Shown here: one piece after another, positions 13,241 through 47,624 of the stretch
Numbering within the stretch: position 1 is the stretch's first letter
Layout of the letters: each line of letters opens with the position of its first letter
Assembly: GCF_004328625.1 (NCBI RefSeq)
Contig: NZ_CP032229.1
Location: 1,364,001-1,428,000 of the forward strand
Reading direction: 5' to 3'
DNA length: 64,000 bases
Source of the DNA: Streptomyces seoulensis
GTDB taxonomy: Bacteria; Actinomycetota; Actinomycetes; Streptomycetales; Streptomycetaceae
Made by a program: the position numbers and the translations under genes
Notes under the pieces: generated by a model
What the model was told of the DNA's origin: nothing
Database searches by the model: none
What the model saw: the letters and a program-made list of their open reading frames with translations, nothing else

Positions 13241-14887
13241 TCAGCCGCCCATCTCCCGGTACTCGGCGACCAGCGCCCGCGTCGACGGGTCGAGACCGGG
13301 CACGTCCGCGCCCTCGGTGAGGGCGGGTTCGATGCGCTTGGCGAGGACCTTGCCCAGCTCGACGCCCCACTGGTCGAAGGAGTCGATGTTCCAGACGGCG
13401 CCCTGGACGAACACCTTCTGCTCGTACAGCGCGATGAGCTGCCCCAGCACGGACGGGGTCAGCTCGGGGGCCAGGATGGTCGTCGTCGGCCGGTTCCCCT
13501 GGAAGGTCTTGTGCGGGATCAGCTCCTTGGGCACCCCCTCCTCCCGGACCTCTTCCTCGGTCTTGCCGAAGGCGAGGGCCTGGGTCTGGGCGAAGAAGTT
13601 GGCCATCAACAGGTCGTGCTGGGACTTCAGTTCATCACTCAGCTCGTCCACCGGACGCGCGAACCCGATGAAGTCCGCCGGGATCAGCTTCGTCCCCTGA
13701 TGGATCAACTGGTAGTACGCGTGCTGCCCGTTGGTCCCCGGCGTGCCCCAGACCACCGGGCCGGTCTGCCACTCCACCGGAGTGCCGTCCTTCTGCACGG
13801 ACTTGCCGTTGGACTCCATGTCCAGCTGCTGCAAGTACGCCGTGAACTTGGACAGATAGTGGCTGTACGGCAGGACCGCGTGCGACTGCGCGTCGAAGAA
13901 GTTCCCGTACCAGATCCCCAGCAGGCCCAGCAGCAGCGGCGCGTTCTCCTCCGCCGGAGCGGTACGGAAGTGCTCGTCCACGGTGTGGAAACCGTCCAGC
14001 AGCTCCCGGAACCTCTCCGGCCCGATCGCGATCATCAGCGACAGACCGATCGCCGAGTCGAAGGAGTACCGGCCCCCGACCCAGTCCCAGAACTCGAACA
14101 TGTTGTCCGCGTCGATACCGAACCCGGTGACCTTCTCCGCGTTCGTGGACAGCGCCACGAAGTGCTTCGCGACCGCCTTGTCGTCACCGAGGACGTCCAG
14201 CAGCCACTTGCGGGCCGACGTGGCGTTGGTGATCGTCTCGATCGTCGTGAACGTCTTGGACGCCACGATGAACAGCGTCTCCGCCGGGTCCAGATCACGG
14301 ATCGCCTCGTGCAGGTCCGCGCCGTCCACGTTCGACACGAACCGCACCGTCAGGCCACGGTCGGTGAAGGGACGCAGCGCCTCGAACGCCATCGCCGGAC
14401 CGAGGTCGGAGCCGCCGATACCGATGTTGACGATGTTCTTGATCCGCTTGTCGGTGTGACCGGTCCACTCGCCCGAGCGGACCCGGTCGGCGAAGCCGGC
14501 CATCTTGTCCAGCACCGCGTGCACGGCGGGGACGACGTTCTCCCCGTCGACCTCGATCACCGCGTCCCGAGGGGCACGCAGCGCGGTGTGCAGCACCGCG
14601 CGGTCCTCGGTCGTGTTGATCCGGTCACCACGGAACATCGCGTCCCGCTGACCGAACACATCCGTGGCGACGGCGAGTTCCTGGAGGAGCCGCAACGCCT
14701 CGGCGTCCACGAGCTGCTTGCTGTAGTCGATGTAGAGGTCCCCGACCTGGACCGTGTACGTCCGCCCGCGCTCCGGGTCGGCGTCGAACAGCTCCCGCAG
14801 GCCCGTCCCGCCGAATCCCTCGCGGTGCTCCTTGAGAGCGGCCCACTCGGGCGTCCGGTTCAGTGCTGTACGGCCTTCTGCGTTCAT
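13241..14887 (-). CDS. pgi: Glucose-6-phosphate isomerase
   Basis: Interconverts glucose-6-P and fructose-6-P, joining glycolysis to the pentose-phosphate operon encoded upstream. The 548-residue product contains both PGI signature regions: [10 protein letters not shown] followed by [13 protein letters not shown], and the C-terminal [18 protein letters not shown] with the conserved lysine. It also has the glutamate/histidine region [23 protein letters not shown]. The frame is open further upstream, but ATG at 14887 matches the family N terminus ([15 protein letters not shown]) and has purine-rich GGAAGG/GGAG sequences before it. It is separate from the tpiA-pgk-gap group, with an exporter and rbpA/secG between them. 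Confidence 0.97.
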
Positions 14888-14963
14888 CTCCGGCTTCCGC
14901 CTTCCTTTCCGCGCCTGTCGCCTGTCCTGCCCCGTGTGCCCACTGCGGGACCAACCTAATTGA

Positions 14964-16232
14964 TCACGCCGGGGCCGGGCCGGTGGTGACACCGCCCCGC
15001 TTCTCGTCCTTCGACACGTCCGCCGAGCGCGCCGGTATCAGTACGAGCACCGCCGCCGCGAAGAGGGCTGCCGTGAGGAGGGCGGGGGTGTAGAGGCCGA
15101 GGGTGCGGGCGGCGGCACCGCCCAGCAGGGCGCCGAAGGGCGCTCCGGCGGTGGAGGCGGTGCGGAAGGCGGCCGAGATACGGCCGGTCATCGCGGCGGG
15201 GGCGCGCTGCTGCATCAGCGTCACCTGGTTGACGTTCCACACCATGCCCATCGCGCCGAGCAGCAGCATCCCGGCGATCAGCGCGGCCAACTCCCGGACG
15301 GAGCCCATCAGGAGCAGCGCCCCGGTCTGCACGGTGCCGCCCAGCAGCAGGGCCCGTACCCGGCCGAGGCGGCCCGCCAGGCGCTGGGCCAGGAAGCCGC
15401 CGGCGATGCTGCCGGCCGAGTAGGCGGTCATGGCGGCGGCGTATCCGGCGTTCCCCGCGTGCAGCCAGCCGGTGACATGCAGGACCAGGGTGGCGATCAG
15501 GGCGCCCATGCCGATGTTGCACAGCAGGGTGGCTCCGCAGGTCGCGCGGAGCGCGCGGTCCCGCCAGAGGGCTCGCAGCCCCTCTCCCATGTCCGCGCGC
15601 AGGGTCGCGCCGGGCGGGCGCGGTTCACGTGCCGGCGACCCTGTGCGCAGGGAGGCCACGAGGGCGGCGCCCAGGAAGTAGGTGAGGGAGTCGACCGCAT
15701 AGGGCAGGAACGCCCCGGCCGTCAGCAGCAGCGGCACCAGGGGTCCCCCGAGCAGTCCTCCGGCGAGCTGCTGACCGGTCATCAGGCGGGCGTTGGCGCT
15801 GCCCAGGGACTCCGGCCGGACCACGGAGGGCAGCAGGGCGGTCGCCGCGTTGTCGAACAGGGTCTGGAGCGCGGTGAGGGAGAAGGCGAGCGCGATCAGC
15901 AGCGGGATCGAGGCGTGCCCGAGGGCCACCGCGAGGGCGAACGCGGCGACGAGCAGCCCGCGCGCCACGTCCACGGCCCACATCGCGCGCCGTTGGTCCA
16001 CCCGGTCGGCCACGGCGCCGCCCAGCAGGCCGAACAGCAGCCAGGGCACATAGCCGCAGGCGGTCACGGCGGCGACGGCGAGCGGGTCGTCGGTCAGCCG
16101 CACGGCGAGCAGCGGCAGCGCGGCCGTACGCAGCGCGTCGCCGAAGCGGGAGAGCACGGCGGCGCTCCACAGCCGCCCGAATCCGCCGCGCCACGCGGGC
16201 GTTGCCGCCCCCACCACCTGAGCCGTCGTCAT
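14964..16232 (-). CDS. MFS exporter (EntS-like), candidate DNA-damage-inducible
   Basis: A 422-residue major facilitator with about 12 predicted membrane segments. The loop after helix 2 carries the MFS motif-A-like [11 protein letters not shown], and the N-terminal half resembles drug/siderophore exporters of the EntS/MFS_3 group. The substrate cannot be told from sequence. It ends 77 bp before the pgi start on the same strand, so some read-through into pgi is possible. Its promoter region contains a full match to the RecA-independent damage promoter at 16265-16287, seen in this window otherwise only before uvrA, uvrB and ogt. That suggests it is induced by DNA damage, perhaps to export a genotoxic compound; this is inference. 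Confidence 0.85.
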
Positions 16233-16264
16233 GGCCGTCCCCCTGAGTCGCAGTTACCTCACTC

Positions 16265-16287
16265 ACGGTAGGGGGCACCACTGACAA
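16265..16287 (-). promoter_or_regulatory. RecA-NDp-type DNA-damage promoter of the MFS gene
   Basis: On the minus strand: TTGTCAGTG (16287-16279), exactly 8 nt, then TACCGT (16270-16265). This fits the consensus TTGTC-R-GTG, N8, TAnnnT described for the PafBC-dependent damage promoters of mycobacteria. The predicted transcript starts about 25 nt before the start codon. Confidence 0.8.
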
Positions 16288-16315
16288 CGGGGTCCGGCCT
16301 GCGGACGGGACAGCT

Positions 16316-16346
16316 CCGGCCGGGCACCCTCTCGGGTCCCGGCCGG
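16316..16346 (-). terminator. Terminator after the rbpA-like gene
   Basis: A perfect 9-bp stem, CCGGCCGGG against CCCGGCCGG, with a 13-nt loop begins 10 nt beyond the stop codon. Confidence 0.65.
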
Positions 16347-16355
16347 CATCAACTC

Positions 16356-16691
16356 CTAGATCTCGCCCCGCAGTTTGGCGAGCGCCTCGGCGAGGATCGC
16401 CTCGCCGTCCGCGTCGCTGCGCCGCTCACGCACATAGGCGAGGTGCGTCTTGTAGGGCTCGGTGCGCGGCGGGTCCGGCGGGTTGTCCCGGTCCTGACCG
16501 GCCGGGAAGCCGCAGCGCGGGCAGTCCCAGGTGTCGGGGACCTGCGCGTCGCTGGCGAAGCTCGGCTGGGTCTCGTGCCCGTTGGAGCACCAGAAGGAGA
16601 TGCGCAGACGCGGTGCGGACTCGCCGCGCTCGGCCTCGCCCATCGGCCCCGCACCGACCCGGCTTCCCCGGATCGCGTTGCCACTTGCCAC
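16356..16691 (-). CDS. RbpA-family RNA polymerase-binding protein
   Basis: A 111-residue protein of the actinobacterial RbpA family, which binds principal sigma factors and the RNA polymerase beta subunit and stabilises the open complex. The N terminus has the basic AIRGSRVGAG segment, the core has a zinc-site pattern (CSNGH then CPRCG, about residues 34-59), and the C terminus contains PRTEPYKTHLAYVRERRS, equivalent to the PARTHWDMLMERR sigma-interaction region of classical RbpA. The departures from the classical sequence (YKTHLAYVRERR, and a shorter tail) suggest it is a paralogue rather than the main RbpA. The start is GTG with GGGAG 9 nt upstream. A long structured leader precedes it. Confidence 0.85.
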   Translation of the reverse strand: MASGNAIRGSRVGAGPMGEAERGESAPRLRISFWCSNGHETQPSFASDAQVPDTWDCPRCGFPAGQDRDNPPDPPRTEPYKTHLAYVRERRSDADGEAILAEALAKLRGEI

Positions 16692-16762
16692 GGTCGTAAC
16701 TCCCTGCGTGATGGTGCCGCGAAGCAGGTCGGCCTATCGCTTCGCCGCGAGCGCCTCAGTCT

Positions 16763-16870
16763 ACGTAAGGCCCAACGCGCGTCCAGTGAGGGGAGGTACC
16801 GCCTCCGCACAGACGCAAGCCCCATGATAGGCCGCGCTCGTGAGCGCGTACCGAACATGGGGCCTTACGT
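16763..16870 (-). ncRNA. Structured RNA element between secG and the rbpA-like gene
   Basis: Read on the minus strand, the element begins ACGTAAGGCCC (16870-16860) and ends GGGCCTTACGT (16773-16763), a perfect 11-bp closing pair. The same 5' arm can alternatively pair with a nearer segment, CATGGGGCTTGCGT (about 16825-16812), giving a 14-bp stem with one bulge around an inner perfect hairpin (CGCGCTC/GAGCGCG, 16848-16833). A small GGAGG/CCTCC hairpin lies in the 3' half. Two mutually exclusive helices sharing one arm is the architecture of an attenuator or riboswitch. It lies about 70 nt upstream of the rbpA-like start. It resembles no RNA family that I recognise. Confidence 0.5.
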
Positions 16871-30396: not shown

Positions 30397-30822
30397 TCAG
30401 GCGGCCGGGCCCGCGACGATCCGGCCGTCCGCCACCTTCACCGGCAGCTCGCTCAGCGGCTCGGTCGCCGGCGCCTGGACCACCTTGCCGGTGACGGCAT
30501 CGAACTCGCTGCCGTGGCAGGGGCAGACCAGGGTCGTGCCTTGCAGTTTGTTGATCACGCACCCGGCGTGCGTGCAGACCAGGCTGTACGCCTTCAGGGC
30601 ACCCGCGCCGTCCCGGCTGACCACCACGTTGTGGTCGCGGTAGAGCTTCGCGGCGCCCTTGGCCACCTCGCCCTCGGCCCCGAGGTCGACGGAGGAGGTG
30701 ACCGCCGAGGCGCCCTTGTCGTCCTGGGGAGCGGCGCAGGCGGCCAGCCCGAGCCCGGCGACCGGCGCCACGGCGGCTCCTCGGAGGACGGTACGGCGGC
30801 TCGCGGACGATCGGGCGGGCAT
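30397..30822 (-). CDS. Rieske [2Fe-2S] protein, Tat-exported lipoprotein
   Basis: A 141-residue exported electron-transfer protein. The N terminus has a twin-arginine signal (SRRTVLRG) with a hydrophobic core ending in a lipobox-like LAAC, so it is probably a Tat-exported lipoprotein. The Rieske domain has both cluster-binding loops, CTHAGC and CPCHGSEF. It is soluble-Rieske sized, not the cytochrome bc1 subunit, which in actinobacteria is much larger with three membrane helices. The ATG at 30822 was preferred over 30834 because GGAGAG lies 4 nt before it. Partner proteins are not apparent nearby. It is convergent with the HTH gene and divergent from the LacI regulator. Confidence 0.88.
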   Translation of the reverse strand: MPARSSASRRTVLRGAAVAPVAGLGLAACAAPQDDKGASAVTSSVDLGAEGEVAKGAAKLYRDHNVVVSRDGAGALKAYSLVCTHAGCVINKLQGTTLVCPCHGSEFDAVTGKVVQAPATEPLSELPVKVADGRIVAGPAA

Positions 30823-36229: not shown

Positions 36230-36252
36230 AGCCTAGGGGGAGCCACTGACAA
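36230..36252 (-). promoter_or_regulatory. RecA-NDp-type DNA-damage promoter of uvrA
   Basis: TTGTCAGTG (36252-36244), 8 nt, TAGGCT (36235-36230) on the minus strand, a full match to the PafBC-type damage promoter consensus. No LexA-type box was found near it. Confidence 0.85.
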
Positions 36253-45525: not shown

Positions 45526-45548
45526 ACCGTACGACCCCCCACTGACAA
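45526..45548 (-). promoter_or_regulatory. RecA-NDp-type DNA-damage promoter of uvrB
   Basis: TTGTCAGTG (45548-45540), 8 nt, TACGGT (45531-45526) on the minus strand. The predicted transcription start coincides with the uvrB start codon. Confidence 0.85.
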
Positions 45549-47601: not shown

Positions 47602-47624
47602 TTGTCGGTGGCGGGTCGTAACGT
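47602..47624 (+). promoter_or_regulatory. RecA-NDp-type DNA-damage promoter of ogt
   Basis: TTGTCGGTG (47602-47610), 8 nt, TAACGT (47619-47624). The -10 ends 7 nt before the ATG at 47632, so transcription should begin at the start codon, as at uvrB. Confidence 0.85.

Follow-up and report, generated by a model that had tools for sequence, protein, structure and literature searches.

An MFS exporter gene in the window, by which we mean the whole 64,000-nucleotide stretch of DNA that was analysed, is preceded by a promoter site of the RecA-NDp (PafBC) type. The encoded protein is probably a PafBC-type damage-induced pump, an accessory member of the regulon that would lower the level of genotoxic small molecules inside the cell. 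The motif, its regulon context, the PafBC genes, and the strong conservation of the motif together with the gene are all seen in the genome sequences analysed. A first-pass annotation of this DNA had assigned a RecA-NDp promoter to the exporter gene, and the sequence data back both the promoter type and its attribution to that gene.

Layout and genomic context of the promoter site

The exporter gene is an open reading frame on the minus strand (14964..16232) and has a predicted product of 422 amino acids. The site upstream of it, TTGTCAGTG-GTGCCCCC-TACCGT, was located by exact string matching at 16265-16287 on the minus strand, where the first-pass annotation had described TTGTCAGTG, 8 nt, and TACCGT. 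It can be divided into a predicted PafBC-type -26 element, TTGTCAGTG (16279..16287, minus strand), an 8-nt spacer, and a predicted -10 element, TACCGT (16265..16270, minus strand). The ATG of the exporter is positioned 32 nt past the -10 element, and the gene and the site are on the same strand. The sequence AGGGGGA (16238..16244, minus strand), read directly from the DNA, is the likely ribosome binding site of the gene, and visual inspection of ten orthologues showed similar G-rich blocks in several of them. We take the RecA-NDp consensus to be TTGTCRGTG, 8 nt, and a TA-containing -10 element. The TTGTCRGTG-N8-TA layout can also be read off the regions upstream of recA, uvrA, uvrB, radA, and ogt of this strain.

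The window contains five matches to the site string with up to three mismatches, whereas 100 shuffled versions had 0.53 on average and always fewer than five. The remaining four matches are at 45526 (one mismatch, uvrB), 47602 (two mismatches, ogt), 36230 (three mismatches, uvrA), and 30788 (three mismatches), the last of which we treat as chance. The sites upstream of uvrB (45526..45548, minus strand) and ogt (47602..47624, plus strand) were identified from the motif match together with family models of the genes, and the gene behind the site upstream of uvrA (36230..36252, minus strand) matches the UvrA model with its first 485 amino acids, below the full-length cut-off. Within the window, the earlier statement that uvrA, uvrB, and ogt are the only other genes preceded by this promoter type is correct, with the addition of the weak match at 30788. 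A LexA-like box, CGAAC-N4-GTTCG, was not found with up to two mismatches in the 468 nt upstream of the exporter, where the best candidate has three, and control by LexA was set aside on these grounds.

The upstream neighbour of the exporter (16356..16691, minus strand, open reading frame) is, as recognized by eye, presumably an RbpA-like gene, and 149 of the 150 sampled genus genomes contain it. A strong hairpin after this gene (16316..16346, minus strand), seen in the fold of 16285-16365, is likely its terminator; the whole folded stretch has an energy of -39.2 kcal/mol (z -1.89) and contains no T tract. Since the hairpin would close the RbpA-like gene, the exporter is probably transcribed from a separate promoter. 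Scanning of 14800-16800 for sigma-70 promoters and T-tract terminators returned no matches, and the RecA-NDp-type site is the only promoter of the exporter evident in the sequence. The downstream neighbour (13241..14887, minus strand, open reading frame), which we take by eye to be pgi, begins 76 nt past the exporter stop. This gap has no clear hairpin (z -0.12), and therefore co-transcription of the exporter gene and pgi is possible. The median gap over 78 orthologous loci is also 76 nt, with odd values in three of them.

In the whole genome, the strict pattern TTGTCRGTG-N8-TANNRT occurs at 14 sites, compared with none for the reversed control. The related pattern TTGTCRGTG-N8-TANNNT has 21 sites without mismatch and 73 when one mismatch is allowed, compared with two for the reversed form of the latter search. 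The gene behind each of the 21 exact sites was defined as a plausible long open reading frame starting within 250 nt. Products scoring above their family cut-offs include RecA, UvrB, RadA/Sms, an Ogt-type methyltransferase, ribosomal protein S6, uracil-DNA glycosylase (udg), RuvC, YjbR, SWIM, and RecD2-HHH proteins, a sigma-70 family factor with an NTF2/SnoaL tail, and SUKH-4 and DUF6928 proteins. UvrA, PcrA/UvrD, a DinG/YoaA-type helicase, and a Hel308-like helicase scored below the cut-off, with about 1.5 kb scored per gene, as did a RarA-type ATPase though it was scored whole. The exporter is the only transporter noticed among the genes behind the 21 exact sites, in keeping with the earlier remark that exporters are not usual members of this regulon. 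The genome also encodes a tandem PafB-PafC pair of 317 and 337 amino acids, which match solved PafBC chains (7p5x, 9fnd, 6sj9) over most of their length with E values of 3e-55 and 9e-53.

Several other genes behind exact sites are candidate new damage-response genes, namely L001 and L006, the proteins of which have no Pfam match, and L007, L008, L011, and L014 (DUF6928, SUKH-4, SWIM, YjbR). An exact TTGTCAGTG-N8-TAGCTT site (G000:C1:3868860-3868882) is located 57 nt before the gene of an ECF-like sigma-70 family factor with an NTF2/SnoaL-like tail (L157), so the damage response may extend to a second sigma factor.

The strict pattern is present in all 150 genomes sampled from the genus, our own included, with 4 to 27 sites in each and nine reversed hits in all, which speaks against a general absence of the motif from Streptomyces. 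This distribution, together with the positions of the pattern before recA and repair genes in the strain's own genome, is in tension with a remark in the available text of PMC9380542 that the PafBC motif of M. smegmatis seems not to be conserved in S. venezuelae.

Conservation and loss of the site with the exporter gene

The first-pass annotation had suggested looking for the motif before orthologues of the gene in other Streptomyces, and the outcome was strongly positive. The strict motif is found upstream of the gene in 76 of 80 named orthologous loci, which are the best 80 of 187. Among the other four, the first base is changed in L075 and L087, the -10 element is changed in L075 and L083, and in L091 TTGTCAGTG is located close to the aligned start. 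No further strict sites occur in the 680,235 bases of these best 80 loci. An exporter match at E <= 1e-60 was obtained in 56 genomes, including our own, of an evenly drawn sample of 150 from the genus. One of the matches (L150) is a non-syntenic homologue with about 42% identity and no motif, and the remaining 55 are syntenic orthologues, 50 of which have the strict motif, three a different first base (L115, L143, L145), and two, which are divergent, no motif (L147, L148). Many of the species are close kin, and therefore these counts do not represent independent events. The footprint of 53 orthologous upstream regions has a mean of 1.96 bits per column in TTGTCAGTG, 1.81 in the -10 element, 1.19 in the spacer, 0.41 upstream, and 0.37 downstream; the values are slightly inflated because the two of the 55 loci that have no motif-like site were omitted and the rows were chosen by a loose form of the motif.

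A chance motif was set aside in view of the 14 sites compared with none for the reversed control, the sharp footprint, and the lack of off-target strict sites. The wider reading, that the resemblance is accidental or without function or that the motif serves another regulator, is highly improbable. It draws on the divergent orthologues L147 and L148, which have no motif, and on the seeming lack of conservation of the M. smegmatis motif in S. venezuelae, as worded in the part of PMC9380542 available. Against it stand the sharpness of the footprint over 53 loci, the absence of off-target strict sites from the 680,235 bases of the best 80 of 187 loci, the excess of sites over the reversed control in the genome, and the repair genes behind the sister sites.

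The exporter gene is dispensable: at E <= 1e-60 no match was obtained in 94 of the 150 genus genomes, and some of the copies that do exist are disrupted. An in-frame stop is present in three of the 80 named orthologues (L024, L083, and L091, among the best 80 of 187), one of which, L083, also has the altered -10 element, and four of the 56 genus matches contain a stop or are split in two. As a gene-less control, we analysed the region starting at the RbpA-like gene, 2 to 2.9 kb long, in 40 of the 94 genomes. The pgi gene is present in 39 of these 40 loci, and the motif is absent from the place between the RbpA-like gene and pgi in 38, which indicates that the motif goes with the exporter gene. 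The two loci with the motif are L183 and L199. In L183 (G032, positions 470-492 onward), the exporter appears by eye as a scar, and the promoter is kept and is now located before pgi, a natural example of a glycolytic gene that could be controlled by DNA damage. L199 contains an internally deleted remnant of the exporter with the motif, and L185 a remnant without it. Such sequences indicate that the exporter gene has been lost more than once. S. coelicolor seems to be without the exporter at this place, judging by locus-tag order alone (SCO1942 pgi, SCO1944 secG); this may explain why the exporter was not encountered in studies of that model. S. avermitilis, by contrast, has a protein with 76% identity to the exporter.

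In a sister genus of the same family, which is probably Kitasatospora, all eight syntenic orthologues (59-67% identity) have the strict motif and adjoin pgi; no RbpA-like neighbour was found in these eight loci. The site of one of them (L246) is 148 nt from the aligned start. Orthologues of the exporter with 52-61% identity, the higher values coming from partial loci, are present in Jiangella and its kin. All 13 Jiangella-type loci have [CT]TGTCGGNN-N8-TANNGT upstream; two of the sites contain the strict TTGTCGGTG, and in the other 11 the element ends in AC or AG, unlike TTGTCRGTG. No relatives of pgi, the RbpA-like gene, or secG were found in the 2 to 6 kb available per Jiangella-type locus, and the single neighbourhood listed is unlike that in Streptomyces. 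When two Jiangella-type genomes were searched with TTGTCGGWS-N8-TANCGT, the strict form was found before genes that by eye we take to be recA (G275) and a SWIM-like gene (G205), and no site of the searched pattern was found before recA in G205. Both genomes examined also have TTGTCGGAC-N8-TANCGT upstream of the gene of a conserved protein of about 80 amino acids with MHIDCDRCEMRGLACSDCVV (L269, L273).

The site is present in none of 19 distant homologues with 35-43% identity. A tree was calculated from 66 proteins, leaving out 11 loci (broken, partial, or near-duplicate) and thinning the Streptomyces rows to 30 of 56. The site-bearing rows form one clade with an SH-aLRT of 99, the only siteless members of which are L147 and L148.

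These loci also bear on the role of the second gene in the possible transcription unit. The important target of the promoter might be pgi, the induction of which would shift the flow of glucose-6-phosphate under damage, and the exporter would be a passenger. The absence of a terminator-like hairpin between the two genes, the mostly constant gap with its median of 76 nt, the promoter kept before pgi in the exporter-less L183, and the retention of pgi beside the exporter gene in the sister genus fit this explanation. We nevertheless regard it as improbable, given that 38 of the 40 exporter-less loci have no motif between the RbpA-like gene and pgi, and that the Jiangella-type loci have the site but no pgi relative in 2 to 6 kb.

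The exporter protein and its predicted function

The exporter passes the Pfam cut-offs of MFS_1 (PF07690, 109.4 bits, cut-off 33.4) and MFS_3 (PF05977, 78.9 bits, cut-off 27), and its AlphaFold model, which has a mean pLDDT of 84.1 and a pTM of 0.82, is a helix bundle with the MFS fold. The best named match is TIGR00900 (2A0121 H+ antiporter) with an E value of 1.9e-48 and 165.7 bits, below the curated NCBIfam cut-off of 319.6. None of the NCBIfam equivalog or exception cut-offs for Tap, Tet(V), Mef(A), Mef(B), and EntS is reached, all scores being far below them. The exporter is therefore none of these named proteins. Drug and siderophore exporters predominate among the sequence families matched, none of which reaches its cut-off, and a sequence search of solved structures returned weak matches only, the best with an E value of 0.0079. 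In the structure search, VMAT, NorA, MdfA, SotB, YegT, and others have close scores; the closest folds belong to diverse MFS proteins, among them nucleoside (YegT, NupG) and sugar-phosphate carriers, and are non-specific for the substrate. The gene encodes an MFS exporter of the drug type, presumably a proton-driven one.

In mycobacteria, single-stranded DNA activates PafBC, the -26 element is bound, and RNA polymerase with the housekeeping sigma factor starts there, as described in the available sections of PMC11804915. The promoter of the exporter has the same layout as the mycobacterial PafBC promoter, from which we infer that the pump is synthesized upon damage and that PafBC is used for it. 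DNA damage would give rise to single-stranded DNA and thereby to activated PafBC, which would enable the housekeeping RNA polymerase to start at TTGTCAGTG-N8-TACCGT. The pump would then be synthesized alongside RecA, UvrAB, Ogt, and the rest of the regulon, and would cut the internal level of genotoxic small molecules, most likely those encountered in soil. The export of genotoxic compounds, the simplest use of a pump under such a switch, is likely; the assignment of genotoxic small molecules as the substrate class is speculative. The substrate may be a compound from competitors, as the first-pass annotation had suggested, or a product of damaged metabolism.

Under the same regulation, the pump could instead export endogenous products of damage or oxidation, such as damaged bases, nucleosides, or oxidized metabolites, in the manner suggested for E. 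coli DinF, which, when expressed, lowers intracellular reactive oxygen species and killing by H2O2 according to the available text of PMC3327717. The best structural matches of the exporter have nearly tied scores and include the nucleoside carriers YegT and NupG. However, VMAT, NorA, MdfA, and SotB score alike, so that the folds are non-specific, and the sequence families matched, below cut-off, are mostly drug and siderophore exporters. We consider the export of endogenous products unlikely.

The first-pass annotation had also offered a compound made by the strain itself as the substrate. Self-resistance transporters against DNA-damaging compounds do exist, for example mct of the mitomycin C producer (PMC6804068, as far as its available text describes it). 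The exporter gene, however, is located at the same place by the RbpA-like gene in 55 of the 150 genus genomes and in many named species. Since the gene recurs across species next to the RbpA-like gene and pgi and is not strain-specific, we disfavour a self-made compound, and there is very little chance that the exporter is a self-resistance pump.

The preferred reading, a damage-induced pump for genotoxic small molecules, can be extended tentatively. It is possible, though we would not favour it at present, that a broad exporter is gated by damage and induced by the lesion, through single-stranded DNA and PafBC, and not by the drug. The exporter would then be an ancient branch of the RecA/LexA-independent response of actinobacteria that either predates the split of Streptomycetaceae and Jiangellaceae or was transferred between them with its promoter, and that has been lost several times since. 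With the lesion as the inducer, a single pump could respond to any genotoxic compound and would need no receptor for it. The data suggest that Streptomyces and some of their relatives may respond to DNA damage not only with repair but also with the export of some substance.

Comparison with known systems

TIGR00900, Tap, Tet(V), Mef, and EntS, which we take to be DHA3-type MFS exporters, are similar to the exporter over nearly the whole length, and differ in that the exporter scores below their cut-offs. The transporter Mct of S. lavendulae protects against the DNA-damaging mitomycin C, as stated in the part of PMC6804068 available. It is likened to the exporter by description, as a transporter against a DNA-damaging compound, and differs from it in being a self-resistance gene of the producer. 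The SOS gene dinF of E. coli encodes a MATE-like protein, for which a role in detoxifying oxidizing molecules is suggested in the accessible text of PMC3327717. Both DinF and the exporter are membrane proteins resembling multidrug exporters within a damage regulon; DinF is of the MATE type and SOS-controlled, whereas the exporter is of the MFS type and has a RecA/LexA-independent promoter type.

RecA-NDp promoters were already known in Streptomyces. The macrodomain gene SCO6735 of S. coelicolor has such a promoter, conserved across Streptomyces orthologues, and is UV-inducible, according to the portions of PMC5087735 available for both statements. The exporter shares with SCO6735 the conserved RecA-NDp promoter and differs in function, since SCO6735 is a macrodomain protein and no pump. 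We found no report in the literature of an exporter in the RecA-NDp/PafBC regulon, though the lists or supplements of the main regulon papers might include one; the word 'transporter' is absent from the main text of PMC5656591, PMC6789036, PMC8151990, and PMC10693628. If the preferred reading is true, a regulon that the available parts of its literature describe as one of repair and oxidative stress defence would also serve to remove the damaging agent, and lesion-triggered efflux could readily be tested by genetic means. With the mycobacterial and actinobacterial PafBC regulon, as presented in the available text of PMC11804915 and PMC8223512, the site upstream of the exporter shares a -26 element of the kind read by PafB and the predicted use of the housekeeping sigma factor. 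The kinds of partner genes and the presence of PafBC are also alike, and the difference is that the target here is a membrane exporter.
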